Part shown: positions 11,754-47,571 of the stretch, in pieces
Layout of the letters: each line of letters opens with the position of its first letter
How positions within the stretch are numbered: position 1 is the stretch's first letter
Assembly (NCBI GenBank): GCA_013360215.1
Contig: JABWCP010000017.1
Location: 1-64,000 of the forward strand
Length of the DNA stretch: 64,000 bases
Source of the DNA: a bacterium
Lineage (GTDB): Bacteria > CLD3 > SB21
Direction: 5' to 3'
Made by a program: the position numbers and the translations under genes
The notes under the pieces: generated by a model
The model's input: the letters and a program-made list of their open reading frames with translations, nothing else
Databases searched by the model: none
Told to the model about the DNA's origin: nothing

Positions 11754-11831
11754 GTTCTGTCGGAAACTATGTATTACATTGGTATAGCACGCCGTCTATA
11801 GAACCAATCTTTGTACGAAAGAGTCCCTCAT

Positions 11832-14444
11832 ATGACAATGGAAGAACAGCGTATCATTGACGCAAGATCGCATGAAAAACCCTGGAAAAAATGGGGGCCT
11901 TATCTGGCGGAGCGCCAATGGGGTACGGTACGCGAAGATTACAGTCCCTATGGTACGGCATGGGAATATCTCACGCATGATCAGGCGCGTTCTAAAACTT
12001 ATCGTTGGGGAGAAGACGGTATTGCCGGTATTTCGGATGAGAAACAAATTTTATGTTTTGCTATTGCGCTGTGGAATAAAAAAGACCCTATACTTAAAGA
12101 ACGATTTTTTGGTGTAACGGGTACCGAAGGAAACCACGGCGAAGATGTAAAAGAGTACTATTATTACCTCGATAGTACGCCGACACATTCGTATATGAAA
12201 ATGTTGTATAAGTATCCTCTTGAAGCTTTCCCGTACGGCCAACTTGTGGAAGAGAATCGAAGACGCACTAAACTCGAACCGGAATTTGAACTTGCCGATA
12301 CGAAAATATTTGATAACGATAATTATCTGGATGTTTTCGTTGAATACGCCAAAAATACACCGGAAGATATTCTCATTCGTGTCACCATTCACAATCGCAG
12401 CGGGCAGAAAGCATCGGTCAATTTGTTGCCCCAGATTTGGTTTCGTAATACATGGGCTTGGGGGTATGACAGCTATAAGCCGCGGCTTCATGCTGAAAAT
12501 CATGCCATACATGTGACTCACGCTGAACTTGGAGCAATGACGCTATTTTCGAAGGAAAAGGGGGAGCTTCTTTTTTGTGAAAACGAAACCAATTATTCTA
12601 AGTTGTATAATATGCCGCCGGGTTCGGGATATTACAAAGACGCATTTCACGAATACTTAATTGGCAATAACCGAAAGGCCGTCAACCCGGATAAGGAGGG
12701 AACGAAAGCGGGAATCAATTATGATATTTCAGTGGAGGCTCAAAATTCGGTTACCGTTCTTCTAAGGTTAGGTCCGTCACGGATGAACGATCCGTTTTCT
12801 GATTTTGATACTGCTTTTCAAAATCGAATAAAGGAATGCGATGAATTTTATGCGACACTTCAAAAAAAAATGAATAATGATGACATGCGTTTAATTCAGA
12901 GACAAGCTCTGGCCGGCATGTTGTGGAGTAAGCAGTTTTATTATTTTGATGTAGCACAGTGGTTAGCCGGAGATCCGGGACAACCTTCACCGCCTAGCGA
13001 ACGAAAAAAAGGCCGTAATCATGCTTGGACCCACCTGAATAATGCGGATATCCTATCCATGCCTGACAAATGGGAGTATCCCTGGTATGCGGCATGGGAT
13101 TTGGCGTTTCACTGTATTCCGTTAGCGATGGTGGATATTGACTTTGCAAAGCACCAACTAACGTTGCTTACACATGAATGGTATATGCATCCCAATGGAC
13201 AACTCCCGGCGTACGAATGGCAATTCGGTGATGTTAATCCCCCCGTACATGCTTGGGCCGCCTGGCGTGTATATAGTGTTGAAAAAATGAAATGCGGAAC
13301 GGGGGATCTCCATTTTTTAAAATCCATATTTCACAAATTACTTCTCAATTTCACGTGGTGGGTCAATCGCAAAGATTCCGAAGGTAATAACGTTTTTGAA
13401 GGCGGGTTCCTCGGTTTGGATAATATTGGTGTTTTTGACCGTAGCGCCGAATTACCTACGGGAGGAAAGCTAGAACAAGCGGACGGTACGAGTTGGATGG
13501 CGATGTATGCCGTCAATATGATGCGTATAGCTTTGGAATTGGCGCGTTTTGATAAAGTTTATGAAGACATGGCAACCAAGTTTTTTGAGCATTTTCTGCT
13601 TATAGCCGGCGCTATAGCGGATACAGGTAAAGGGGGCGGCGACCTCTGGGATGAAGAAGATCAATTTTTTTATGATGTTCTAAGAGCTCCGGGTATTGGC
13701 GAAATGCGCCTCAAAGTGCGTTCGATGGTGGGTCTTACACCCATATTTGCAGTCGAGATTCTGGATACACAGTCATTACATGAAGTGCCTACATTCGCCA
13801 AACGATTGGAATGGTTTCTCCAGCATAGACCTGACTTGGCCAAACTTGTTTCGCGTTGGCAAGAACCGGGTATTGGAGAAAAACGTTTATTATCTCTTTT
13901 GCGAGGACATCGCCTCAAACAACTTCTCAAACGGATGTTAGATGAAAACGAATTTTTATCTGACTATGGGATCCGTGCATTGTCTAAATTTCATCAGAAA
14001 AATCCTTATGTATTTCAATCTAATGGCAAATCGTTTACGGTTAATTATCAACCTGGAGAGTCTGAATCGGAAGTTTTTGGAGGAAATAGTAATTGGCGCG
14101 GCCCGATATGGATGCCGATGAATTATATGCTTATAGCTTCGCTATATAAGTTTCATAGTTATTATGGCGATGATTTCTTGGTAGAACATCCAACAGGTTC
14201 AGGTAACTATATGACGCTGACGGCTATAGCGGATGACTTGTCTAAACGGTTAACTCGGATTTTTTTAAGAAATGATCAAGGTCAACGTCCCATTTTTGGA
14301 GATATAGCAAAATTTCAGAAAGATCCTTTTTTCAAAGACTATATTTTATTTTATGAATACTTTCACGGCGATAATGGGCGTGGCGTTGGCGCCTCCCACC
14401 AGACAGGATGGACGGGGTTGATTGCAAAGCTTTTGGAGGCTTAA
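11832..14444 (+). CDS. MGH1/GH63-like glycoside hydrolase
   Basis: An 870-aa protein without signal peptide, resembling large cytoplasmic glucosidases of the MGH1/GH63 (alpha/alpha)6-barrel group. The frame is open from TTG 11811, but ATG 11832 is preferred, with GAAAGAG about 9 bases upstream. An N-terminal beta-rich half (HNRSGQKASVNLLPQIWFRNTWAWG) precedes the barrel. WYAAWDLAFH places an acidic residue at about 423, and EVFGGNSNWRGPIWMPMNY places Glu near 747; these match positions where GH63-type enzymes hold their general acid and base. The substrate (an alpha-glucoside, trehalose- or glycogen-derived oligosaccharide, or glucosylglycerate-type solute) cannot be told from sequence. It stands alone between the rpoC terminator and its own terminator. 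Confidence 0.8.
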   Translation: MTMEEQRIIDARSHEKPWKKWGPYLAERQWGTVREDYSPYGTAWEYLTHDQARSKTYRWGEDGIAGISDEKQILCFAIALWNKKDPILKERFFGVTGTEGNHGEDVKEYYYYLDSTPTHSYMKMLYKYPLEAFPYGQLVEENRRRTKLEPEFELADTKIFDNDNYLDVFVEYAKNTPEDILIRVTIHNRSGQKASVNLLPQIWFRNTWAWGYDSYKPRLHAENHAIHVTHAELGAMTLFSKEKGELLFCENETNYSKLYNMPPGSGYYKDAFHEYLIGNNRKAVNPDKEGTKAGINYDISVEAQNSVTVLLRLGPSRMNDPFSDFDTAFQNRIKECDEFYATLQKKMNNDDMRLIQRQALAGMLWSKQFYYFDVAQWLAGDPGQPSPPSERKKGRNHAWTHLNNADILSMPDKWEYPWYAAWDLAFHCIPLAMVDIDFAKHQLTLLTHEWYMHPNGQLPAYEWQFGDVNPPVHAWAAWRVYSVEKMKCGTGDLHFLKSIFHKLLLNFTWWVNRKDSEGNNVFEGGFLGLDNIGVFDRSAELPTGGKLEQADGTSWMAMYAVNMMRIALELARFDKVYEDMATKFFEHFLLIAGAIADTGKGGGDLWDEEDQFFYDVLRAPGIGEMRLKVRSMVGLTPIFAVEILDTQSLHEVPTFAKRLEWFLQHRPDLAKLVSRWQEPGIGEKRLLSLLRGHRLKQLLKRMLDENEFLSDYGIRALSKFHQKNPYVFQSNGKSFTVNYQPGESESEVFGGNSNWRGPIWMPMNYMLIASLYKFHSYYGDDFLVEHPTGSGNYMTLTAIADDLSKRLTRIFLRNDQGQRPIFGDIAKFQKDPFFKDYILFYEYFHGDNGRGVGASHQTGWTGLIAKLLEA

Positions 14445-14471
14445 TTTTAGGTTATGTTTGTTGGTATTGTA

Positions 14472-14496
14472 CGAAATAGCTAACTATTCGTTTTTT
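14472..14496 (+). terminator. Terminator after the glycosidase
   Basis: CGAA(A)TAG (14472-14479) pairs with CTATTCG (14484-14490) with one bulged A and a 4-base loop, followed at once by six T. A second dyad, TACAGAC (14496-14502) with GTCTGTA (14506-14512), starts in the last T and could be an operator or extend the structure. Confidence 0.6.
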
Positions 14497-14573
14497 ACAG
14501 ACCTTGTCTGTATGTCGGCTATAAGTTAAATTAAATTGAGTTTTTTGTTAATTCACTTCCCCTGGAGAAATCT

Positions 14574-15479
14574 ATGAAACGAATGCTATTGTTTGTCACC
14601 GTTATTCTTATGGCTTGCGATGGTGGAAAATCAGATGAAGCCTTGATCCTAGATTTGACCGATTTTCCGCTGCCTTTAGCGGCTTCGACGGCGGCCATAT
14701 ACAACGGTGAATTGTACGTATTCGGAGGCAGTGATAACTACAATGGCGATACGACGTATCAATCCATTTTTAAATTTAACGGAAGCAGTTGGGAAACGGT
14801 CGATACGATGTTTAATGACGCTACTTGGGACGGAAAAGTTTTGATAAAAGAAAACTCAGCTTATTACGTTTCAGGATGGCCGGATATTTCAGGCGCTCTA
14901 AAACGTTATAATTTTACCACAAAAACATGGGCCAGTCTCGACACCGGTAGTATTAGTTTGAATTGGGGAACAACAGCCCAGATCGTAGGCAATAAGATTT
15001 ATCACTTTGATTCTTACGGTGAAGTCGAAGTTTATGATATAAATACCAATCAATGGATTTCCCGCAATCCGAACGGTTTGAAAAACGGATCGGAGAGAGG
15101 TTTGACTTCGGTGGTATACGACGGAAATATCTTTGTAACAGGTTACGGGGATACGGTGTTGTATAAGTATCATGTTGATGCCGATTCGTTTTCAGTAGAA
15201 TCCGTTATGCCGCGTTCAATTATATCTTGCGTTATGGTTGAGTTAGAAAACAAAATCTATTTTATCGGTGGTAGCGAAAATGATGGTGAAGACAATGTGT
15301 ATTCAGATTCTTATATTTATGATATAACAGAACAGGAATGGACTCACAGCTCTATTGCTTTAAAAATCCCTTCCATTTTTACCGCTTATGCGTTATCCGG
15401 GAGTACGGTGTATGTGATCGGCGGTATCAATGCCAGTGGTGATGGTATTACAGATGCATACAAAATATCTCTACAATAG
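14574..15479 (+). CDS. Kelch-repeat lipoprotein
   Basis: A 301-aa protein with a lipoprotein signal (hydrophobic stretch then LMAC, lipid-anchoring Cys at residue 15). The rest is a beta-propeller of Kelch-like repeats, recognisable by recurring NGELYVFGG, NKIYHFDS, NKIYFIGGS and STVYVIGG segments followed by aromatic W positions; about five or six blades. Kelch propellers are binding scaffolds, or in the NanM family sialate mutarotases. No catalytic signature is recognised here. The ribosome-binding site CTGGAG precedes the ATG. It is followed 8 bases later by a secreted protein gene. Confidence 0.75.
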   Translation: MKRMLLFVTVILMACDGGKSDEALILDLTDFPLPLAASTAAIYNGELYVFGGSDNYNGDTTYQSIFKFNGSSWETVDTMFNDATWDGKVLIKENSAYYVSGWPDISGALKRYNFTTKTWASLDTGSISLNWGTTAQIVGNKIYHFDSYGEVEVYDINTNQWISRNPNGLKNGSERGLTSVVYDGNIFVTGYGDTVLYKYHVDADSFSVESVMPRSIISCVMVELENKIYFIGGSENDGEDNVYSDSYIYDITEQEWTHSSIALKIPSIFTAYALSGSTVYVIGGINASGDGITDAYKISLQ

Positions 15480-15487
15480 GAGGTACT

Positions 15488-16120
15488 ATGCGGTTTATTA
15501 AAAAATTTTATTCGATTTGGGCTTTAGCATTGATTACTCAAGTATCGTCATTTGTAGTCGCGCAGTCAAAACCCGAACCTTGTATGATCAATGAATCGTT
15601 TAGTCTGGCTAAACATAAACCTGAAAAAATCGCGCAATGTATCGAGGAACAATATAATAAATCACTTAACAGTTCGGGCACTGTACTCTACGATAGTAAA
15701 GATATAAACATGTTTTTTGTAAAAGGCGTAAGATTGCCTGATGTAAATAAAAATCTATCCTCTTTTGGTAAGAGATTATATGCGGACTGTTTTGAGTATC
15801 GTGGTGGTCCTATTTTGGCGTTTTCTGAAGATAAGTCGGATAGTACGGACGAAACGGTACGCCGTTATGTATTCGGTTCAGCCGTAGTGCTTACAGACAA
15901 AAAGGGCATATTTGAGATACACTGTTATGACAGTAAATATGAAGTTGCAAAAGGAGTGAAAGTCGGAATGGCGATCACCGAGGTTGTTGCTAAATTTCCC
16001 GGTTTGAAACTTACCAATGAAAAAGAAGGTGATGTGTTGATTTCTAACAAAGGTTGTCTGACTTTGCATTATACCGATGGTATAGTACGTTGGATGGTTG
16101 TAGCGAGGGGTTGTTATTAG
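15488..16120 (+). CDS. Secreted protein of unknown function
   Basis: A 210-aa protein with a clear signal peptide (MRFIKKFYSIWALALITQ..., cleavage probably after VVA near residue 25). Its ribosome-binding site AGGAGG overlaps the stop of the Kelch gene, so the two are translated together. The mature part has several cysteines and no family I recognise; a segment KVGMAITEVVAKFPGL resembles short periplasmic substrate-independent folds but no function follows from that. Likely periplasmic or outer-membrane associated. Confidence 0.7.
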   Translation: MRFIKKFYSIWALALITQVSSFVVAQSKPEPCMINESFSLAKHKPEKIAQCIEEQYNKSLNSSGTVLYDSKDINMFFVKGVRLPDVNKNLSSFGKRLYADCFEYRGGPILAFSEDKSDSTDETVRRYVFGSAVVLTDKKGIFEIHCYDSKYEVAKGVKVGMAITEVVAKFPGLKLTNEKEGDVLISNKGCLTLHYTDGIVRWMVVARGCY

Positions 16121-16122
16121 TC

Positions 16123-17499
16123 ATGTCGCTGCTGCTTATTGGAATTTTGTCGTATGTAGCACTCCAACTTTTGATCGGCGTATTCGTTTCACGCAAAATC
16201 CATTCGGAATCGGACTATCTCCTTGCCGGGCGGAGTCTGGGCATGGGGCTTGCAACATTTTCGATTTTTGCGACTTGGTTTGGTGCTGAAACATGTATCG
16301 GCACGGCCGGAGCGGCCTATGAAAGCGGTTGGGCCGGCGTCAAAGCGGATCCTTTTGGTTATGGCGTATGTGTTTTGATCGTCGGTATTTTTTTTGCAAT
16401 TCGCCTGTGGAAACAAAAACTAACGACAATCGGTGATTTCTTTAGAGCCAGATACTCACGTTCTGTTGAAAAAACAGCTGTCATCCTGATGATCCCCACA
16501 TCGATCATGTGGGCTGCCGCGCAAATACGTGCGTTTGGCCTGGTGTTATCCGCCTCATCAGAACTTACCATTACACTTTCTTTGACAATCGCCGCTGCGG
16601 TCGTCGTAACTTACACGGCATTCGGAGGTCTTTTAGCCGACGCTATGACGGATGTAGTGCAGGGTATCACGCTTATTATCGGATTACTCGTGATCTTGCC
16701 ATTTCTGATATCTGACACCGGTGGAATAAAAGGTTTTATGCACGTTGTTTTGCAGGAACGGCATAACGAAACGAATGTCAATTTTTTAGAAATAGCTGAG
16801 ACATGGGCTATACCGATATGCGGGTCGCTCGTTGCACAGGAATTGCTTTCGCGTGTCATTGCGAGCCGTTCTCCTCAAATCGCACAACGCTCATCGATCC
16901 TCGCCGCGATACTGTACGTCAGCGTGGGTATTATCCCTGTGTTGATCGGGTTGACAGGTTTTGTTGTTTTGCCAGGACTATCCGAGAGTGAAAGTATTTT
17001 GCCGATGATGGCACAAAAATATCTTACACCGATGTTGTACATTATTTTTTCCGGTGCACTCGTGTCTGCGATTTTATCTACGGTGGACAGTACACTTTTA
17101 GCAGCTTCATCACTGATGACACATAACTTGATCATTGCTTCGCGTCCCGATTTAGATGAAAAGTCAAAACTTCGTATATCCCGATGGGGGGTTATCTCTA
17201 TGGGTATTTTATCCTATATCTTAGCATTATATGCCGAAGGTATTTATGATTTGGTCAAAGATGCGTCGGCCCTCGGTAGTGCGGGAATTTTCATCGTTTT
17301 TGTTTTTGGGCTGTTTACGAATTGGGGTGGTGCGTATAGCGCTTTGGCGAGTTTGATAGTAGGTACAACCGTATGGATCGGCGCTCACTACGTGTGGGAA
17401 TCTTCGACGGGCTACCTTATTGCACTTGGTGCAGCTTTTATAGTGTATGTGGGAATTGGTTTTTTTGAAAAGCACACTAAGCCCATAACACCAATTTAA
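16123..17499 (+). CDS. Sodium:solute symporter (SSS family)
   Basis: A 458-aa polytopic membrane protein of the SSS/SLC5 family with about 13 hydrophobic helices. The frame runs upstream into the previous gene, but ATG 16123, just past the previous stop and preceded by GCGAGGGG, gives the normal N-terminus. Family features include DYLLAGRSLGMGLATFSIFATWFG near residue 30 and AILSTVDSTLLAASSLM near residues 315-330, with the serines/threonines that form the Na2 site in this family. Substrate unknown. The 2-base gap after the secreted protein indicates one operon with the Kelch lipoprotein. Confidence 0.88.
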   Translation: MSLLLIGILSYVALQLLIGVFVSRKIHSESDYLLAGRSLGMGLATFSIFATWFGAETCIGTAGAAYESGWAGVKADPFGYGVCVLIVGIFFAIRLWKQKLTTIGDFFRARYSRSVEKTAVILMIPTSIMWAAAQIRAFGLVLSASSELTITLSLTIAAAVVVTYTAFGGLLADAMTDVVQGITLIIGLLVILPFLISDTGGIKGFMHVVLQERHNETNVNFLEIAETWAIPICGSLVAQELLSRVIASRSPQIAQRSSILAAILYVSVGIIPVLIGLTGFVVLPGLSESESILPMMAQKYLTPMLYIIFSGALVSAILSTVDSTLLAASSLMTHNLIIASRPDLDEKSKLRISRWGVISMGILSYILALYAEGIYDLVKDASALGSAGIFIVFVFGLFTNWGGAYSALASLIVGTTVWIGAHYVWESSTGYLIALGAAFIVYVGIGFFEKHTKPITPI

Positions 17500-17507
17500 T
17501 TAACGAA

Positions 17508-17575
17508 AATCGCTCTTTTCATACACCTTACTGCGTAGCTCGTTTCTAATACAAAACGCAATCATAAGAGCGATT
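17508..17575. repeat. 10-bp inverted repeat, possible structured element
   Basis: AATCGCTCTT (17508-17517) is the exact reverse complement of AAGAGCGATT (17566-17575). Inside lies a second pair, TGCGT (17532-17536) with ACGCA (17556-17560). The nested stems are not followed by a T run. They fill the 143-base space between the symporter gene and the next lipoprotein gene. Confidence 0.5.
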
Positions 17576-17642
17576 ATCATCAAGAATTCAACATATCCTT
17601 TAAATAAATAAAATCGGTTATTCATAAAACCGTGGAGATAGC

Positions 17643-18545
17643 ATGAATCGCAGCATTCTCTTTTGTTTGGCTATGTATATAGTCGCATGCGGCGAAAAAG
17701 TGAATTTTGCCGATAAGAGTGAACCGCACTCGCAAGCCGGTGCAGCGATGCGAAATATTCAGGCACCATTAAATGAACAAGGTGCGGATGCGTCACCGAT
17801 AGCTGATCGCCATGAACATAGCTCAACCGCATCGTTGTACGCTGCGGAAAAAAAGCAGGATCGTATTATCATAAAGAACGGTTCACTTCAGATACAAGTT
17901 CAAAACTATGACGAAACAGTTTCCAAGCTTAGGACCATGGTTACGGCGTGGGGAGGATTTGTTGCACATTCATCTACGTCTGTACCTTACGCCGATGTCA
18001 AAGAGGGAAACTGGACCATACGTATTCCGAGTGAACACTTTGATACGGCCATGACCGGGGTTAAAACTTTAGGTCAAAAAACAGAAAGAGAAAGCGTTGA
18101 AGGACAAGATATAACAGAGGAATTTTACGATCTGGAAGCGCGGCTTCGCAATAAACGTCTTGAAGAAGAACAAGTACAAGCAATCCTCCGGCGTGCAGGT
18201 ACGATTTCGGATGTATTAGAAGTGCAGCGTGAATTAAACCGAATTCGTGAAGAAATCGAACGAGCGGAAGGCCGTAAACAATTTCTCTCGGATCGGGTCA
18301 AATATTCTACGATCAATATACAAATGCACGAAGCTTATCCCGTCACGGTCAGCGCGAGCGGAGGGTTTTGGGCAACCATCGCTGAAGGTTTTGCGGACGG
18401 TTTTAAAGGCTTTGCCAATGTCCTCAGCAGTACGATCACCGTTTTGATCGCCGGAATACCTGTTTTTATTGTTTTCGGTCTAGTGATCAGGTTTGTTTTT
18501 TTACGTATGCGGCGGCACAGGGAAAATCCAAAAACATCCGGTTGA
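17643..18545 (+). CDS. DUF4349-like lipoprotein with C-terminal membrane anchor
   Basis: A 300-aa protein with a lipoprotein signal ending IVAC (Cys at residue 16). A low-complexity linker is followed by the DUF4349-type domain: RIIIKNGSLQIQVQNYDET, then WTIRIPSEHFDTAM, and a coiled-coil RNRLEEEQ-like region with LEVQRELNRIREEIERAEGR. A final transmembrane helix (about residues 264-288) ends in an arginine-rich cytoplasmic tail. Proteins of this family are membrane-associated and of unknown role. GTGGAGA precedes the start. A palindromic terminator follows. Confidence 0.8.
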   Translation: MNRSILFCLAMYIVACGEKVNFADKSEPHSQAGAAMRNIQAPLNEQGADASPIADRHEHSSTASLYAAEKKQDRIIIKNGSLQIQVQNYDETVSKLRTMVTAWGGFVAHSSTSVPYADVKEGNWTIRIPSEHFDTAMTGVKTLGQKTERESVEGQDITEEFYDLEARLRNKRLEEEQVQAILRRAGTISDVLEVQRELNRIREEIERAEGRKQFLSDRVKYSTINIQMHEAYPVTVSASGGFWATIAEGFADGFKGFANVLSSTITVLIAGIPVFIVFGLVIRFVFLRMRRHRENPKTSG

Positions 18546-18571
18546 GGGCCAATTCATATATTAGCATAGTT

Positions 18572-18603
18572 ATCGCATATGAATTTCATATGCGATTTTT
18601 TTT
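18572..18603 (+). terminator. Intrinsic terminator after the DUF4349-like gene
   Basis: ATCGCATATGAA (18572-18583) pairs with 18585-18596, an almost perfect palindrome, effectively 11 bp with a 3-base loop, followed by eight T. Confidence 0.85.
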
Positions 18604-18643
18604 GATATCGGTGTATATTAGATGAACAATAGCAATAAAACTT

Positions 18644-19585
18644 ATGGCCGATAAAAAATTAAAAGAGCTTATATGTGAAGAAGCCCGGGATTTGGGGTTT
18701 GATAAAATCGGATTCGCTACAGCGGCTCACGTTACACAGGCGGAATATCTAAAGCGTTGGTTGAATCAAGGTTACCATGCGTCCATGCAGTGGATGAGTA
18801 ACCACTTAGAAAAACGCATTGATCCGCGCACGTTGTTTCCGGGTGCCCGCTCTGTAATCGTTGTGGCACTTAACTATCACCAGCCTCAAGCACGTTCTGT
18901 GACAGAAAATACCGGAAAAATTTCCCAGTACGCATGGGGCGAAGATTATCATGAGGTGTTAAAAGATAAGTTGTATATGCTACTAAATAAACTTTGTTTG
19001 CACGATACGCAGATCGAAGGCAAGGTGTGTGTTGATACGGCGCCGATGATGGATAAATATTGGGCCGTACAGGCAGGTATCGGATGGCAAGGCAAACATT
19101 CCAATGTTATTTCACGTGAATTGGGTTCATGGTTTTTTATCGGATCGCTGATCGTCAATGTTGATATAGAGCCAGATATGCCGATCGCGGATTTTTGCGG
19201 ATCATGTACACGATGCATTGATGCATGTCCCACGCAAGCGATTATCCATCCGTATGTTGTAGATTCCGGGCGATGCATTTCATACTATACGATCGAACAC
19301 CGAGGAGAGCAGTTGCCCGAGAGCCTTGTTGCACATTTGCAAAACTGGATATATGGTTGCGACGTGTGTCAGGATGTTTGCCCGTGGAATATCAAATTTG
19401 AAAAACCTACACGGGAAGCCCGTTTTACTCCACGTATGGAAAACATCAATGTTTCGTTACAGACTTGGCAAAACTTGACTGAATATGATTTTCGCTTAAA
19501 ATTCCGCAAAAGCGCGGTCAAGCGCACTAAATTTGCAGGGTTACGAAGAAATATTTATGCGGCTCTGGAACCGAAAGCGTATTGA
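18644..19585 (+). CDS. queG: Epoxyqueuosine reductase
   Basis: A 313-aa QueG, which uses cobalamin and two [4Fe-4S] clusters to reduce epoxyqueuosine to queuosine in tRNA. Both ferredoxin-like cysteine sets are present: CGSCTRCIDACPTQAI (about residue 185) and CDVCQDVCPWN (about 243). The upstream segment VCVDTAPMMDKYWAVQAGIGWQGKHSN is typical of the cobalamin-binding half. It lacks the C-terminal HEAT-like domain of the longer QueG type. A possible promoter, TTGATA (18602-18607), 17 nt, AACAAT (18625-18630), would give an almost leaderless transcript. Confidence 0.95.
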   Translation: MADKKLKELICEEARDLGFDKIGFATAAHVTQAEYLKRWLNQGYHASMQWMSNHLEKRIDPRTLFPGARSVIVVALNYHQPQARSVTENTGKISQYAWGEDYHEVLKDKLYMLLNKLCLHDTQIEGKVCVDTAPMMDKYWAVQAGIGWQGKHSNVISRELGSWFFIGSLIVNVDIEPDMPIADFCGSCTRCIDACPTQAIIHPYVVDSGRCISYYTIEHRGEQLPESLVAHLQNWIYGCDVCQDVCPWNIKFEKPTREARFTPRMENINVSLQTWQNLTEYDFRLKFRKSAVKRTKFAGLRRNIYAALEPKAY

Positions 19586-19682
19586 CTTTGTTTGTTTTTT
19601 TTTCGATTTTTGATCCAATCATTGTTTTCAGGTCAATAATTTTTAGAATACAATTACTTCAATACGGCGGAGGCACGGTCTC

Positions 19683-20270
19683 ATGGCAAAGAAAAAATCA
19701 GCGCCAAAAAAAGCGGCTAAAAAAGTCGTAAAAAAAGCAGTCAAAAAAGTAGCTAAGGCTGCACCAAAAAAATCAACGAAGAAAGTTGCTAAAAAAGCAG
19801 CCGGAGTCAAAAAGCAACAGTTAACCACGGATCAATTGCACGCCAAGGTATTGGGTAAAGTAGAGACATATATCAAACGTATCTATGGTAAGAGCTATGA
19901 AAAACACGATGACGGGCGATTCCTCGTATTTGAGGGCTCTACGGTTGTTCAAACGGTCTTGCGTCCGTGGCACGCCGGTGATATTGTCGTCGAATCATTT
20001 GCTTATGTGGTTCAGGATGCGCGTTTAACGGACGAACTGATGAAGTTTTTGTTGCGTGAAAATGCGACATTACACTTCGGTTCATTTGGATTGTCATTTG
20101 ACGGAACGATTATATTCGGTCACTCGCTGGCCGGCGCCAATCTGGATGAAAACGAATTTTCCGCTTCGATCAAATCCGTAGCACGTATTGCGGATCACTA
20201 TGATAATAAAATCGTCGAAATGGCCGGCGGTATGACTGCACGTGAAGCAATGAAAAAAGGCATCATGTGA
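19683..20270 (+). CDS. Histone-H1-like tail fused to YbjN/type III chaperone-like domain
   Basis: A 195-aa protein in two parts. Residues 1-42 are almost only lysine, alanine, valine and proline, with KKAAKK and KKVAKK repeats as in bacterial histone H1-like DNA-binding tails. Residues 48-195 form an alpha/beta domain (KVLGKVETYIKRIYG, GRFLVFEGSTVVQTVLRPW, LLRENATLHFGSFGLSFDGTI) that resembles the YbjN/type III secretion chaperone fold, in which a small cytosolic dimer binds other proteins. The pairing suggests a DNA- or RNA-associated adaptor. Domain assignment is by eye. It is followed by its own terminator and so is probably a single-gene unit. Confidence 0.65.
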   Translation: MAKKKSAPKKAAKKVVKKAVKKVAKAAPKKSTKKVAKKAAGVKKQQLTTDQLHAKVLGKVETYIKRIYGKSYEKHDDGRFLVFEGSTVVQTVLRPWHAGDIVVESFAYVVQDARLTDELMKFLLRENATLHFGSFGLSFDGTIIFGHSLAGANLDENEFSASIKSVARIADHYDNKIVEMAGGMTAREAMKKGIM

Positions 20271-20295
20271 TCTGAAATAAAATATTACGTTGAAA

Positions 20296-20327
20296 AAAAC
20301 CAGCGTCTCCGGCGCTGGTTTTGATTT
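20296..20327 (+). terminator. Terminator after the histone-tail gene
   Basis: AAAACCAGCG (20296-20305) pairs with CGCTGGTTTT (20313-20322), loop of 7 bases, followed by GATTTTTA. It lies just upstream of the thioesterase start. Confidence 0.85.
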
Positions 20328-20348
20328 TTATATATCAGGGGATACTTT

Positions 20349-20849
20349 ATGAATTTGTGGATTCGTATGTTGCGTGTTTTTTGGAAATCTTTTTTTTGCA
20401 AAAAGAAAATAGGTCTTTTCGACGAAAGCCGGTTGAGTTTTAGAGTGTGGCCACATGACTGCGACATCAATATGCACCTCAATAACGGGCGCTACCTTAC
20501 ACTCATGGACCTTGGGCGTACGTATCTGATGGCGGAAATGCAAATGCTCTGGAAATTACCCAAAAGAAAATGGTTTCCTGTACTAGGCGGAGTGGAAATC
20601 CAGTTTCTGAAATCAATAGATCCTTTTCAAAAATTTGATATTGCGACACACGTTCTCACTTGGGATGCCAAATGGATTTATGTGGAACAGCGTTTCGAAA
20701 GAAACGGGGTAGTTTTGGCTAAAGCCCATCTGCGTGCATTATTTCTAGGTCCGCAAGGCCGTGTTGCTACGGATGCCATAATTGCTTTAGCGGAATTAGG
20801 TTCTGTCGAAGCGCCTTTGCATCCAGTTTTACAAAAATGGAAAGATTAA
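20349..20849 (+). CDS. Hot-dog fold acyl-CoA thioesterase-like protein
   Basis: A 166-aa protein of the 4HBT/THEM6-like hot-dog group. The diagnostic segment is FRVWPHDCDINMHLNNGRYL (about residues 34-53), in which an Asp and the HxNN stretch precede the long central helix (LTLMDLGRTYLMAEM). Such enzymes hydrolyse acyl-CoA or acyl-carrier thioesters; the substrate cannot be predicted. The N-terminal 15 residues are hydrophobic and aromatic (LWIRMLRVFWKSFF), perhaps for membrane contact. Confidence 0.75.
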   Translation: MNLWIRMLRVFWKSFFCKKKIGLFDESRLSFRVWPHDCDINMHLNNGRYLTLMDLGRTYLMAEMQMLWKLPKRKWFPVLGGVEIQFLKSIDPFQKFDIATHVLTWDAKWIYVEQRFERNGVVLAKAHLRALFLGPQGRVATDAIIALAELGSVEAPLHPVLQKWKD

Positions 20850-38257: not shown

Positions 38258-39817
38258 TTAAGATGGATTTTCTTTTGGCAAAGTGATGGTAAAAGTTGTT
38301 CCGAGGTTTTCGATGCTATCGACAGAGATAGTGCCTTGATGCTCTTCGATTATTTTTTTTACGATCGCCAGACCAAGTCCCATACTAGTTGTTTTCGTTG
38401 AAAAATGAGGCTCAAAAATTCGTTCGAGATTAGATTTGGGAATTCCGTATCCGTTATCGGCAATAATAAGTTGTACGTGTGTGTTCACATCTATCGTTGC
38501 TATACGAATCAGGCGATCCTGTTTGTTTGAAACTGCGGCCAGCGCATTATCAATAAGGTTAATTAATACGCGTTTGAATGCCTCGGTATCAAGGGGAATA
38601 AATGGAAGGCGATCATCTAATTTTTTTTCGAAGGGGATAGCGGCATACATCAGGATGATATCTTCAATAAGTTTATTCAGAGACGAAGGCTTAAGAACAA
38701 CGATCGGCATACGTGCAAAATCCGAAAATTCTTTGGTCAAATTGCGTAATGTTTCAATTTCTTCTTCGATGATAGTTGTGCATTCCGCGAGAAGTTTCCG
38801 ATATTTTTCATCATTTCCGGCGTATGAATCTTTAATTTGCTGAATCGTAAGTTGTATCGGAGTAAGCGGGTTTTTTATCTCGTGCGCCATACGTTGCGCC
38901 ATTTCACGCCATGTCGCTGTTTTTTCAAGTTGTAAAATGCGCTGCTGCTCTTCACGAAGGTTTTGAACCATTTGATTAAGGGCGGCGGCTAAAGCACCAA
39001 ATTCATCCCTTGTGTCCAGTTGTAAACTATAATCCATTTGCCCCTTAGCAATATTGGAAGCCTGCCGACTAAGCGCCTGAAACGGTTTGAACATCTGGCC
39101 GATAAAAAACCATAAAAGTAAAATAAATATAGATGCAGGTACAAGTACCGCGGCAAAGAATATCCATAGATGAGAAAAGCGCATGTTATCTGCGCCACGG
39201 AGCAGCAAAGTATATTGATTGTTCGCAGCGACAATACGCTCGTATTTTTTGGCGAATTCCTTTTCTACCATCCGCGCCGTGATAAGGTAACCCTGCTGTT
39301 GTGAAGGCAACGCCAGCGTTGTTTTGTACACGAGGGACCGATTGATACTGTCGTAAGCGGAGGTAGATCTTGCAAATTGTTCATCTGTTTTGAGGCTATC
39401 GGGAAACACGGACGAAAGGCGTTTGTCTAGTATGCTTAAATGCCGGAATAAACAACGGCCGTTTTCGTCATACAAAAAAACGCCATCTATACGGAGTTGA
39501 GTAAATAAAGGCAAGCCGATAAAGGCCTGAAACTGATCGGAGGTCAATTTTTGGCCTTGTAAACGGATAATGAAATCAGTGAATTCGGGTCGCTGTGAAA
39601 AAGCACGAGCATTTTCTGAAAAAATGCGACGTTCGTCTTCGATCAGATTTTCGGCTATTTGACGACCACTAACCAGCGCTTGTCCGATTTTATTGTCCAT
39701 CAGTTGTTCGGAAAAGCGTGATGAAAAATAATGAAATCCGAAAATTGCGATACCGGTAATGAACAGTATCGAAGCGGCTGCGGCGATTAAAATCTTTTTT
39801 TCTAAGGGAACCCGCAT
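38258..39817 (-). CDS. NtrY-like membrane histidine kinase
   Basis: A 519-aa sensor kinase: transmembrane helix (residues 9-30), periplasmic sensor region (31-215, rich in glutamine and arginine), second helix (216-241), HAMP (about 242-292), DHp with phospho-acceptor His312 in REMAQRMAHEIKNPLTPIQL, and a complete ATPase domain (NLIDNALAAV, DNGYGIPKSNL, STKTTSMGLGLAIV). The DHp sequence is the NtrY type. No response regulator is adjacent, so its partner lies elsewhere. The signal sensed is unknown. Confidence 0.92.
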   Translation of the reverse strand: MRVPLEKKILIAAAASILFITGIAIFGFHYFSSRFSEQLMDNKIGQALVSGRQIAENLIEDERRIFSENARAFSQRPEFTDFIIRLQGQKLTSDQFQAFIGLPLFTQLRIDGVFLYDENGRCLFRHLSILDKRLSSVFPDSLKTDEQFARSTSAYDSINRSLVYKTTLALPSQQQGYLITARMVEKEFAKKYERIVAANNQYTLLLRGADNMRFSHLWIFFAAVLVPASIFILLLWFFIGQMFKPFQALSRQASNIAKGQMDYSLQLDTRDEFGALAAALNQMVQNLREEQQRILQLEKTATWREMAQRMAHEIKNPLTPIQLTIQQIKDSYAGNDEKYRKLLAECTTIIEEEIETLRNLTKEFSDFARMPIVVLKPSSLNKLIEDIILMYAAIPFEKKLDDRLPFIPLDTEAFKRVLINLIDNALAAVSNKQDRLIRIATIDVNTHVQLIIADNGYGIPKSNLERIFEPHFSTKTTSMGLGLAIVKKIIEEHQGTISVDSIENLGTTFTITLPKENPS

Positions 39818-43093: not shown

Positions 43094-43651
43094 ATGATCT
43101 TAACGGACACTCAGATTTTAGCCGAAATCGCTAAAGGTACCATACGTATTGAACCTTTTCGTCGCGATTGCCTTGGTTCCAATAGTTATGATGTGCATTT
43201 AGGCAAATACCTCGCGGTGTATTCCGAGGAAACTCTAGATTGCAAAAAAGATAATCCGATCGAACATTTTGAGATACCCGAAGAAGGGTATGTATTGATG
43301 CCCACGAAACTTTATCTCGGTGTAACCCAAGAATACACGGAGTCCATGGCCCATGTTCCATTTTTGGAAGGCAAATCGAGTATCGGAAGATTGGGAATTG
43401 ACATTCACGCGACAGCCGGTAAAGGGGATATTGGTTTCTGTAATACATGGACACTCGAAATTTCAGTAAAACACCCCGTACGCGTATACGAGGGTATGCC
43501 CATAGGTCAATTGATTTATTTTGAGGTTTCGGGGCAGATTGAAACACCTTATAATTCTAAGCCGTCGGCTAAGTATAATGAACGCACGATACGTCCTGTC
43601 GCATCCATGATGTTTAAAAATTTTGATCGTGAAAAAAATCGCTGGAAATGA
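43094..43651 (+). CDS. dcd: dCTP deaminase
   Basis: A 185-aa Dcd of the trimeric dUTPase fold: MILTDTQILAEIAKGTIRIEPF, GSNSYDVHLGKYL, FLEGKSSIGRLGIDIHATAG and MPIGQLIYFE. It deaminates dCTP to dUTP for thymidylate synthesis. The frame is open from TTG 43049, but ATG 43094 gives the family N-terminus; no Shine-Dalgarno is visible, the leader being AT-rich. It heads an operon with two signalling genes and tyrS. Confidence 0.95.
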   Translation: MILTDTQILAEIAKGTIRIEPFRRDCLGSNSYDVHLGKYLAVYSEETLDCKKDNPIEHFEIPEEGYVLMPTKLYLGVTQEYTESMAHVPFLEGKSSIGRLGIDIHATAGKGDIGFCNTWTLEISVKHPVRVYEGMPIGQLIYFEVSGQIETPYNSKPSAKYNERTIRPVASMMFKNFDREKNRWK

Positions 43652-43667
43652 AAGAGCCGATTATAAC

Positions 43668-45221
43668 ATGATGGCTGAACAACAAATGTATTCCCTCTCC
43701 GAAGTGTTGAACGCATTGCGTATGCGTGTGAAACCCGAAACTTTTGCATCGGTATGGTTACAGGAGTGGCTCCGTCAATGCGATGTTGCGCGATTGGAAT
43801 GTTTTGAAGCAAACAATGAAGGTCAATGGAGTTCTATTCTGCGTTGGGAAAAAAACGGCTCTCATAATCCGGCATTAAATTCACAACCGGTTCATCCGAA
43901 TGCAGCGATGCAAATCGCCTTTAAGCAAGCAGAACCTCTAATCGGCGATAGTTCCCAAATATACGGTAAACCATCAGCGGTGCCGATGACATCGGTCGTA
44001 TTGCCCGTTTTATCGGACAAACAAGTAGTAGGCCTTATTGTTGCCGATAAATTGACTGAGCATGAAAAAAATATAAACATACCATTTTTGGAATTATTGT
44101 CATCGTTATGGGGCCTGCACCGCGCCTCTATGGTCGCAACGGAAACTCTCGAAGCCGTTCGATTTGAAAGAGATAATTTACGTGCTCAGATTGAACAGGC
44201 TCTAGCCGCATTTAGGCCGGAAACACCACAAGATGAATTGGCGCGTACATTGATTACGATTGCTCGAAGCTTAGCACAAATGCTGCTACCGTCAATAATT
44301 CAACAAGACAAAAACAATATAGATGCTGTTTTATCTTTCTCAAAAGAAGTTTCCTTTTTTGAAAAAAATGAATTTCATGCAAATTTTTATCAACCGCAGG
44401 AAAATGAGGAGTCGGATATTTCATCGGTCTTAGACGAATCTGTAGACATTGCAAGAAACGATGAGGCGTGTGTCAAAAAAAGATTTATTATAGACTTCAA
44501 AAGGCAAGGTCGTGAAATCGTTTCGTCTGAGTTTAAGCGATTGCAACAATTTATATCTTCCGTATTTTCATTGATGATCAGCTATGGCAAAGAAAATTCA
44601 ACAATAGCCGTTGAATACACGCCTCAAGGTGAATTTATAAAAATTCTAATAAAGGCCGATACCGAAAGAGGGTTTCACGAAAAAATCGGTGATTTTTATG
44701 CTTTCACAGCTAGGTTAAATGGCTGGGAATGTGATTGGTCAGCGCATGAAAACAAGATACAGTGTATTCTATCACTGCGACGTGTTGCGAGTTCGGATTC
44801 ATCGCAGAACACATCACAATCTTTGGCCGACTCGAAAAAGGAAACAAGACTTCTTATTGTTGATGATGACGAATCTTTACGTGAACTTATGGTGGATATT
44901 TTGGAGTCACGTAATTATCAAGTCGTATGTTGTCCGGATGCATCATCGGCGATGGAACAGATTAATAAATTGCGCTACGACATGATCATTACAGATTTAG
45001 GTCTTCCCAATATCAGTGGTTCGGAATTGGCTGCACAGATTAAAGCCTTAAATCCACATCTACCTGTAATGATGATGACCGGGTGGAATATCGATACAGA
45101 GCGTCCGGATGCGCGGACCACATATGTAGATTTTATTTTGCCGAAACCTTTCAATTTGAATGAATTGCTGGAGAAAGTAGAAAACGGTCTCCATGCATCA
45201 CGTACGATGAGGCATTCATGA
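43668..45221 (+). CDS. GAF-like and degenerate kinase protein with receiver domain
   Basis: A 517-aa protein (ATG 43668, with AAAGAG upstream; ATG 43671 is also possible). Residues 1-150 look like a GAF-type sensor (VLPVLSDKQVVGLIVADKL). Residues about 160-385 follow the outline of a histidine kinase (coiled region, then FIIDFKRQGREIV before SSVFSLMISYGKENSTIAVEY) but lack the H box, the Asn of the N box and the glycine boxes, so it should not bind ATP or autophosphorylate. Residues 394-512 are an intact receiver: acidic pocket DDD (399-401), phospho-acceptor Asp443 (MIITDLGLP), MMTGW and LPKPF. It overlaps the next gene by ATGA. Confidence 0.75.
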   Translation: MMAEQQMYSLSEVLNALRMRVKPETFASVWLQEWLRQCDVARLECFEANNEGQWSSILRWEKNGSHNPALNSQPVHPNAAMQIAFKQAEPLIGDSSQIYGKPSAVPMTSVVLPVLSDKQVVGLIVADKLTEHEKNINIPFLELLSSLWGLHRASMVATETLEAVRFERDNLRAQIEQALAAFRPETPQDELARTLITIARSLAQMLLPSIIQQDKNNIDAVLSFSKEVSFFEKNEFHANFYQPQENEESDISSVLDESVDIARNDEACVKKRFIIDFKRQGREIVSSEFKRLQQFISSVFSLMISYGKENSTIAVEYTPQGEFIKILIKADTERGFHEKIGDFYAFTARLNGWECDWSAHENKIQCILSLRRVASSDSSQNTSQSLADSKKETRLLIVDDDESLRELMVDILESRNYQVVCCPDASSAMEQINKLRYDMIITDLGLPNISGSELAAQIKALNPHLPVMMMTGWNIDTERPDARTTYVDFILPKPFNLNELLEKVENGLHASRTMRHS

Positions 45222-46360
45222 AACCTACTTTAATGCTGGTTGATGACGAATCGAGGGTTCTGGAGGTACTTGTTAAAACATTCGAATCCCAATATCAGAT
45301 TTTTTCTTTTACAGGTGCTCATGATGCGCTGGAGTTACTCAAAAGGCAACCGGTTCAGGTGATCATTACCGATGAACGTATGCCAAAAATGAACGGCATG
45401 ACGTTTCTTAAAGAAGCAAAAGTATGGGCTCCCAATACAGTGAATATCATTCTTACGGCCTATACGGATATCAATGTTGCTATCGAAGCAATCAATAGTG
45501 CGGTGGTATATCGTTATGTCGTAAAACCATGGGATACAGATGACCTTAGAACGATCGTGCGTCAAGCTTTTGAACGGTATGCATTGGTACAAGAAAATAA
45601 AAAACTAACTGACGAGCTGATCGCTAAAAATGCGGCACTGGAACAAAACCTGAAACAATTAAAGGAGACTCAGGAAAAACTGCTGCGCCAGGAAAAATTA
45701 GCCGTAGTGGGTCAATTGACGGCGAGTATCGGCCATGAGTTACGCAACCCGCTGTCGCGTATCAAAGCATCCGCCGCGTTGATGCGAAATGAAATTTTAC
45801 CGGAAGAAAAAGAGAAAAAAGAGCTTCTTCAAATCATTGATAATGAGGTCATGATATCTACCAAAATTATTAATGACCTTTTAGATTATTCCCGTGACCG
45901 TAAAACTATTTTTAAATCGGGTAATTTTAATATTATTATTGATGAAACGCTAATGCGCATGCGTTTCCCGGATGAAGTGGAGGTTGTGCGCGAATTGGCA
46001 TCGGATCTGCCGGACAATCAAGTGGATGAAGGTCAGATTCAGCAAATACTTATCAATCTCATGCTTAATGCCATCCAAGCCATGGAATATAGCGGAAAAA
46101 TCTATGTCCGTACTCATCATGACGGAGATGCAGCAATCGTCGAAATCAAAGATACCGGATGCGGTATATCCAACGAAAACCTTGAGCGCATTTTCGAACC
46201 ACTTTTTACTACCAAACCGAAAGGTATAGGCCTTGGTATGTGTATCGTAAAAATGTTAATTGAAAAACACGGTGGCACCATCGGTATTACTAGCAGAGAA
46301 AATATAGGAACTACCGTAAAGATTAGAATTCCATTTCATCCGAATTTTATGGAGAATTGA
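45218..46360 (+). CDS. Receiver-histidine kinase hybrid
   Basis: A 380-aa soluble protein. Receiver domain (1-120) with phospho-acceptor Asp52 (VIITDERMPKMNGM) and KPW; a coiled coil (about 122-160); DHp with His173 in LTASIGHELRNPLSRIK; and a complete ATPase domain (LINLMLNAIQAM, DTGCGISNENLERIFEPLF, TKPKGIGLGMCIVKML). It has no membrane segment, so it likely receives phosphate or signals from another protein, the obvious candidate being the preceding receiver protein with which it shares an ATGA overlap. No output DNA-binding domain is encoded nearby. Confidence 0.93.
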   Translation: MKPTLMLVDDESRVLEVLVKTFESQYQIFSFTGAHDALELLKRQPVQVIITDERMPKMNGMTFLKEAKVWAPNTVNIILTAYTDINVAIEAINSAVVYRYVVKPWDTDDLRTIVRQAFERYALVQENKKLTDELIAKNAALEQNLKQLKETQEKLLRQEKLAVVGQLTASIGHELRNPLSRIKASAALMRNEILPEEKEKKELLQIIDNEVMISTKIINDLLDYSRDRKTIFKSGNFNIIIDETLMRMRFPDEVEVVRELASDLPDNQVDEGQIQQILINLMLNAIQAMEYSGKIYVRTHHDGDAAIVEIKDTGCGISNENLERIFEPLFTTKPKGIGLGMCIVKMLIEKHGGTIGITSRENIGTTVKIRIPFHPNFMEN

Positions 46361-47571
46361 TGTTTCTTCCGATTGCAGACCAGCTTGCAGTTATCAAACG
46401 TGGCATCGTTGACTTAATCCCAGAAGACGAACTTGTAAAAAAACTTGAGAATTCACTCAGAACCTCAAAACCGCTTAAAGTCAAATTAGGCTGTGATCCT
46501 TCACGTCCGGACTTACATATAGGCCATTCTGTGGTACTGAGGAAATTACGCCAATTTCAAGATCTTGGACATCAGGCGATATTGGTGATCGGTGATTTTA
46601 CCGGTATGATCGGCGACCCAACAGGTAAAAATAAAACCAGACCATCGTTATCATTGGAAGAGACACGGCTTAACGGTAAATCGTACCTGGAGCAAGCGTC
46701 TAAGATTTTGGACGCCCAAAAAACAAAAATCGTATATAATTCTGACTGGTTGGGAGCCATGAATTTTGCCGATGTGGTAAAATTGGCCAGTCGGTATACG
46801 GTAGCACGCATGTTGGAGCGAGATGACTTTGAAAACCGTTATCGTAGCGGAGAACCGATCAGTATTCATGAGTTTTTATATCCATTAGCGCAAGGTATGG
46901 ATTCGGTGGCCTTGGAAGCCGATGTGGAGTTGGGCGGTACAGATCAGAGATTCAATTTGTTGGTAGGCCGGGATTTGCAGCGCGAATACCAGCAGCAACA
47001 GCAGGTCATTATTACTATGCCGTTATTGGAGGGGACAGACGGCGTTCAAAAAATGAGCAAATCGTTAAATAATTATATCGGCATTGATGACTCGCCTAAA
47101 GAAATGTTTGGCCGGGCAATGTCTATTCCTGATGCTTTAATTTATAAATATTTTGAATTAACGACGAATGTTGATGCAGGCGAGCTTCATAAAATAAAAA
47201 CAGATTTGGACAGCGGTACAGTAAACCCATCGCACTTAAAACGACGCTTGGCTAAAGAATTGATATCTATTTATCACGATGCCGGGCGTGCGCAAGCGGC
47301 GGAAGAAGAGTTTGATCTGATTTTCAAAAAGAAAGAAATCCCGGAAGACATTCCGGTTATTTCATTGAACAAGGGCACGTGGATCATTTCAAAACTACTA
47401 CTTGAATGTAAATTAGTTGAATCGGGCAAAGAAGCACAAAGACAAATTCAACAAGGTGCCGTGAATATTAATGGTGAAAAAATAACGGATGAACGTGCAG
47501 TTATCCAAATCGAATCGGAGCTTGTGATTAAGGTAGGTAAGAGAAAGTTTTTGAAAATTATTCCGACTTAA
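46360..47571 (+). CDS. tyrS: Tyrosyl-tRNA synthetase
   Basis: A 403-aa class I synthetase. The start ATG 46360 overlaps the kinase stop (TGATG) and has GGAGAA upstream. The HIGH motif is DLHIGHS (about residue 51) and the KMSKS motif is VQKMSKSLNN (about 231); GGTDQRFNLLVGRDLQ is the tyrosine-pocket region. The spacing and sequence fit the TyrZ-like subgroup. A C-terminal S4 RNA-binding domain (about 340-403) begins near ISKLLLECKLVESGKEAQRQIQQGAV. Its stop lies 3 bases from the convergent pssA stop. Confidence 0.96.
   Translation: MFLPIADQLAVIKRGIVDLIPEDELVKKLENSLRTSKPLKVKLGCDPSRPDLHIGHSVVLRKLRQFQDLGHQAILVIGDFTGMIGDPTGKNKTRPSLSLEETRLNGKSYLEQASKILDAQKTKIVYNSDWLGAMNFADVVKLASRYTVARMLERDDFENRYRSGEPISIHEFLYPLAQGMDSVALEADVELGGTDQRFNLLVGRDLQREYQQQQQVIITMPLLEGTDGVQKMSKSLNNYIGIDDSPKEMFGRAMSIPDALIYKYFELTTNVDAGELHKIKTDLDSGTVNPSHLKRRLAKELISIYHDAGRAQAAEEEFDLIFKKKEIPEDIPVISLNKGTWIISKLLLECKLVESGKEAQRQIQQGAVNINGEKITDERAVIQIESELVIKVGKRKFLKIIPT

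Follow-up and report, generated by a model that had tools for sequence, protein, structure and literature searches.

The 64,000-nucleotide stretch of bacterial DNA analysed here (the window) carries, between dcd and tyrS, two overlapping genes for signalling proteins that we call P1 and P2. P1 is best described as a pseudo-histidine kinase whose core is recognisable by profile comparison and Foldseek but lies below Pfam detection, because a kinase-like core emerged in three tests and the catalytic motif positions are lost. P2 is, judged by its architecture, a receiver-controlled kinase of the LvrB type, although it lies below the cut-off for LvrB itself. The pair is an uncommon form of known two-component signalling rather than a new system, and it recurs in one small bacterial family.

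All four genes of the locus lie on the forward strand. The likely operon begins with dcd (dCTP deaminase, 43097-43651; NCBIfam TIGR02274, 106 bits against a cut-off of 92.8, and Pfam DCD), whose end is separated by 16 nt from the start of P1 (43668-45221, 517 aa), which consists of a GAF-like N-terminus, a decayed histidine-kinase core and an intact C-terminal receiver. The codons of P1 run from 43668 to 45218 and are followed by TGA, and this stop overlaps the start of P2 (45218-46360, 380 aa; codons 45218-46357, stop TGA 46358-46360) in the tetranucleotide ATGA at 45218-45221. Both genes lie exactly where the initial annotation had placed them. The ATG of tyrS (tyrosyl-tRNA synthetase, 46360-47571; NCBIfam TIGR00234, 386 bits) in turn shares one base with the P2 stop (TGATG). 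Because of these two overlaps, dcd-P1-P2-tyrS looks like a single tightly packed operon. The P1/P2 junction overlaps by 1-4 nt in all orthologous loci, and the ATGA arrangement makes translational coupling of P1 and P2 likely. A membrane histidine kinase (HAMP-HisKA-HATPase with a sub-threshold CHASE4) is encoded 4 kb upstream of the pair at 38258-39817 on the reverse strand, and since the window gave no Response_reg match besides those of P1 and P2, this kinase has no adjacent partner.

The middle of P1 (residues 156-388, 44133-44831) was assigned to a DHp-CA-like pseudo-kinase from hhalign comparisons, a motif table, the AF2 order of secondary structure and Foldseek. Pfam detected neither HisKA nor HATPase in this region of P1 or its five orthologues, and a PDB sequence-profile search with the P1 middle region returned nothing convincing. 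When the middle regions of the six orthologues were aligned with hhalign to 46 DHp-CA cores, however, the match was collinear and scored 48.9, whereas the maximum of 150 shuffles was 18.3. Subsets behaved differently: the regions from G003, G005 and G006 reached 51.0 against the kinase profile (150 shuffles, maximum 24.6) and that of P1 alone reached 28.7 against the 46 kinase cores (shuffle maximum 22.8), while those of G002 and G004 alone did not match the profile (21.5, with shuffles up to 32.7). Searched over 193 genomes, the middle-region profile gave strong matches to the six orthologues only, and four of the five weak extra matches fell within HisKA + HATPase_c proteins, the fifth being a 152-aa frame. 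When Foldseek was run on an AF2 model made for the middle region of one orthologue, 49 of its top 50 matches were histidine-kinase or kinase-like cores (E ~1e-3 or weaker), DivL and phytochrome A among them, and the full P1 model had the hybrid kinase ShkA (6qrj) as its top match over 513 columns. Confidence in these models is low (pLDDT 49.7 for full-length P1 and 43.6 for the orthologue's middle region), and they were used solely for fold class and for the order of helices and strands, which in P1 is H288-306, E313-320, E323-332, H338-350, E354-360, E363-371. The hhalign comparison, the profile search and Foldseek thus all point to a kinase core and not to an unrelated fold.

In this core, the H, N, F and G2 motifs are lost, with the reservation that residue-by-residue equivalence with kinase motifs is uncertain at such divergence. 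Across the six orthologues, the position of P2 H173 is occupied by Q/S/S/S/H?/K, so that no histidine is conserved; the second N-box asparagine (P2 N284) is replaced by L/V/E/V in four; and the G2 glycines (P2 G338 and G340) are gone in all six. The initial annotation had described a kinase-shaped middle lacking the H, N and G boxes. The shape is recovered by profile methods and not by Pfam, and the loss holds for the H, N and G2 positions, but it is not complete throughout: one D-box position may persist in P1 (DTERG for DTGCG), and the G002 orthologue has, close to the H box, a histidine that is absent from the sister species.

The region in front of the core (residues 1-155, 43668-44132) is assigned to GAF by orthology. 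Pfam GAF or GAF_2 exceeds the cut-off at the equivalent position in all five P1 orthologues; it does not do so in P1 itself, whose N-terminus matches GAF weakly in hhalign (23.4, shuffle maximum 22.5). From this position and this match we infer a GAF domain in P1 as well, as the initial annotation had suspected. The P1 proteins of G003, G005 and G006 (L039, L041 and L040) have 160 aa more, and their additional segment at the N-terminus looks GAF-like by eye. At the other end, the predicted C-terminal receiver around Asp443 is confirmed (residues 396-505, 44853-45182; Pfam Response_reg, 86 bits), with all of its catalytic residues present (D399, D400, the phospho-acceptor D443, T471 and K493). 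For five of this receiver's best non-orthologous matches outside the family, the domain order was checked by Pfam; each of them lies at the C-terminus of a HisKA-HATPase-REC hybrid, and four of these hybrids have GAF or PAS as the sensor. Within the genome, the best paralogue of this receiver likewise sits at the C-terminus of a kinase, a REC-HK-REC protein. Most simply, then, P1 would be a decayed hybrid kinase of the order GAF-kinase-receiver.

P2 is intact. Pfam finds REC (75.9 bits, residues 6-114), HisKA (52 bits, 165-226) and HATPase_c (93.2 bits, 270-374), and the expected residues are in place: D9, D10, D52, T80 and K103 of the receiver, H173, N280 and N284, D312-G314-G316, and G336, G338 and G340. 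These catalytic residues are invariant across seven orthologues. The N-terminal receiver leads directly into DHp and CA, as in LvrB, with no other sensor and no transmembrane segment. A 19-residue Kyte-Doolittle scan detected no transmembrane-grade stretch in either protein, the best means being 1.19 in P2 and 1.46 in P1 versus 2.71 in the membrane kinase of the same window. The earlier description of the second protein, with receiver, His173, full ATPase motifs and no membrane sensor, therefore stands on Pfam, residues and hydropathy alike. NCBIfam gave only generic receiver and kinase matches for P1 and P2, all below cut-off.

The pair is conserved beyond its own genome, and so is the four-gene synteny: the order dcd-P1-P2-tyrS is found in six of the seven available genomes of the family. 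P2 has orthologues (51-65% identity) in each of the six other family genomes and P1 in five of these, while the two sister-family genomes contain no comparable P1/P2 pair. A scan of genome contigs that used P1 alone as the query yielded no relatives, whereas one with the P2 alignment found them. In the exceptional genome, G001, a 43-codon ORF (L056:1430-1558, reverse strand) lies between dcd and P2 and overlaps the P2 start. The end of this ORF can be aligned with the final 23-32 residues of the P1 receiver at scores of 59-83 (maximum of 500 shuffles, 45), and because of this alignment we regard it as a P1 remnant, P1 having been lost and P2 kept intact, in a single case that comes from an 85%-complete, fragmented assembly. 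The remnant may persist only for translational coupling. P1 appears dispensable in G001, since it has shrunk to a remnant there beside an intact P2. An obligatory P1/P2 relay in every genome is thus ruled out; that P1 and P2 together form a soluble relay, as first proposed, is plausible where both are present.

The reading that we prefer, and to which we give about an even chance, is that P1 descends from a GAF-kinase-receiver hybrid, has decayed and now acts through its receiver and pseudo-DHp, either modulating P2 or reading the output of P2. The catalytic core would have decayed into a non-catalytic dimerisation or docking module, and P1 would sense a cytoplasmic signal through its GAF domain and then modulate P2. 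Since P1 is predicted to be catalytically dead, it could not supply P2 with phosphate from its own histidine. Two options may apply: P2 phosphorylated at H173 might phosphorylate D443 of P1, which would serve as a phosphate sink or would switch the P1 dimer by feedback, or the pseudo-DHp might contact P2, and the sensing role of GAF and the acceptor role of D443 may be combined. P2 itself would be switched by phosphorylation of D52, and the phosphate would pass to a regulator encoded elsewhere, a mechanism proposed by analogy with LvrB (PMC13269768, PMC5863495). An output domain is absent from both proteins, and the other receivers and Hpt domains of the genome, which has 94 Response_reg matches and several Hpt domains, could carry the signal onward. 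A dead kinase that steers a live one would have precedents in DivL and in the laboratory-evolved ChrS (PMC4211667, PMC9491836). Against this reading stand the persistence of P2 in G001, the failure of the G002 and G004 middle regions alone to match the kinase profile, the low confidence of the AF2 models and the weak GAF call in P1 itself.

Alternatively, P1 could be the output response regulator of P2, phosphorylated at D443, with the remainder acting as an effector on an unrelated target and without feedback. The gene order, the overlap and the intact receiver fit such a role, and so does the paralogue that stands nearest to the P1 receiver within the genome, a receiver at the C-terminus of the REC-HK-REC protein (76.5 bits, the next being 55.2); the fused arrangement suggests that a REC-HK can serve a P1-type receiver. 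This paralogous protein is encoded at G000:C7:34824-36368 (L141:1301-2980:-) and is matched in five other family genomes. However, the receiver of P1 is C-terminal and the remainder resembles a sensor kinase rather than an effector, and P2 persists without P1 in G001, so we consider an output role possible but clearly less probable than modulation of P2.

In a third explanation, P1 would be a decaying, redundant hybrid kinase carried along by the operon structure, and only P2 would matter. Values of dN/dS were calculated by simple NG86 counts for three species of one genus. The kinase-like region is the fastest-evolving part of P1, at 0.35 (0.24-0.50) and 0.38 (0.25-0.57), against 0.17-0.20 for the GAF domains and 0.11-0.22 for REC, while the P2 kinase gave 0.04-0.07 and the cores of four intact control kinases 0.02-0.06. 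The point estimates of P1 run against the usual order, since a kinase core normally changes most slowly, although the P1 domains have intervals that partly overlap one another; these intervals do not overlap those of the intact kinase cores. The dead core of P1 is under relaxed yet still purifying selection. Decay would agree with this fast evolution, with the loss of P1 in G001 down to a 43-codon remnant and with the mere 23-29% overall identity of the P1 orthologues. On the other hand, the reading frame of P1 stays open in six of seven species from three genera, the catalytic residues of its receiver are all kept, and dN/dS is well below 1 in the kinase-like region (upper 95% bound 0.57) as well as in REC. 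Because the ratio stays below 1, a plain pseudogene is disfavoured and a retained signalling role of P1 is suggested, and we regard simple decay as unlikely.

It is highly improbable that the pair reports nucleotide or translation status owing to its location, as the initial annotation had speculated: its position between dcd and tyrS is conserved in family genomes, but gene order in the surrounding block of ~32 kb is largely shared with other genera (most genes between ~21 kb and 54 kb of the window keep their order in G003 and G002, across three genera), and the sister family carries a distant homologue of dcd whose contig is not that of tyrS. Because the block is mostly collinear across genera, the dcd/tyrS position would reflect block synteny, and a functional link of the pair to these genes was rejected on that basis. 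Elsewhere in the window, eight ORFs at 11811-20849 have no match on the two compared contigs, unlike most of the flanks, and are either rearranged or specific to their own genome.

Returning to P1 as a modulator of P2, the pair can be compared with several known systems. Pseudo-histidine kinases are rare among recognised kinases, the histidine being lost in 0.9% of HisKA domains (PMC12632262). This count covers Pfam-detectable domains only, and P1-like proteins may be under-counted because the P1 core has decayed beyond Pfam's reach in all orthologues. A natural pair of dead hybrid and live Rec-kinase, together with a relative that has lost the dead partner, makes a compact system for testing what an inactive kinase contributes to a working one.

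The closest parallel to P2 is LvrB, a receiver-controlled kinase in which receiver phosphorylation releases the catalytic domains (PMC13269768) and which in Leptospira is co-encoded with the hybrid kinase LvrA, by which it is phosphorylated (PMC5863495). Both are soluble Rec-DHp-CA proteins of nearly the same length (380 versus 382 aa) and match over residues 40-374 (PDB 8vc9), but P2 scores 93.8 bits with NCBIfam NF047466, far under the cut-off of 500. At the level of the pair, a Rec-kinase is in both cases co-encoded with a partner that is, or derives from, a hybrid kinase, but LvrA is an active PAS-HK-REC-HK kinase whereas P1 has the order GAF-pseudoHK-REC.

For P1, the hybrid histidine kinases, such as ShkA and a GAF-HK-REC protein in L016, share the domain order and include the nearest relatives of the receiver, but they retain the catalytic motifs that P1 has lost. 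DivL of Caulobacter is kinase-shaped, lacks kinase activity and modulates the phosphorelay of another kinase (PMC4211667). P1 is likewise kinase-shaped and predicted to be inactive, and DivL (4q20) was among the Foldseek matches of a P1 orthologue. DivL has PAS domains and a tyrosine at the histidine site, whereas P1 has GAF, a fuller loss of motifs and an intact receiver. DivL is not known to have a receiver. In RetS-GacS and in the ChrS pseudokinase of an evolved C. glutamicum, an inactive or partner kinase acts on a sister kinase, possibly via heteromers (PMC9491836); these systems differ from P1/P2 in their sensors and in their classical response-regulator output, and the ChrS pseudokinase arose in the laboratory. 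The subfamily II ethylene receptors (ETR2; PMC10968091) have the same order of GAF, degenerate kinase and receiver as P1, a likeness at the domain level, but they are plant membrane proteins with an ethylene-binding domain whereas P1 is soluble and bacterial. We tentatively raise one further idea, more doubtful than an output role for P1: P1/P2 might be a bacterial soluble counterpart of such degenerate receptors, in which the dead core, whose evolution outpaces that of the sensor, would serve as a docking platform for reading phosphorylation and would set how active a separate Rec-kinase is via a D443/D52 double switch.
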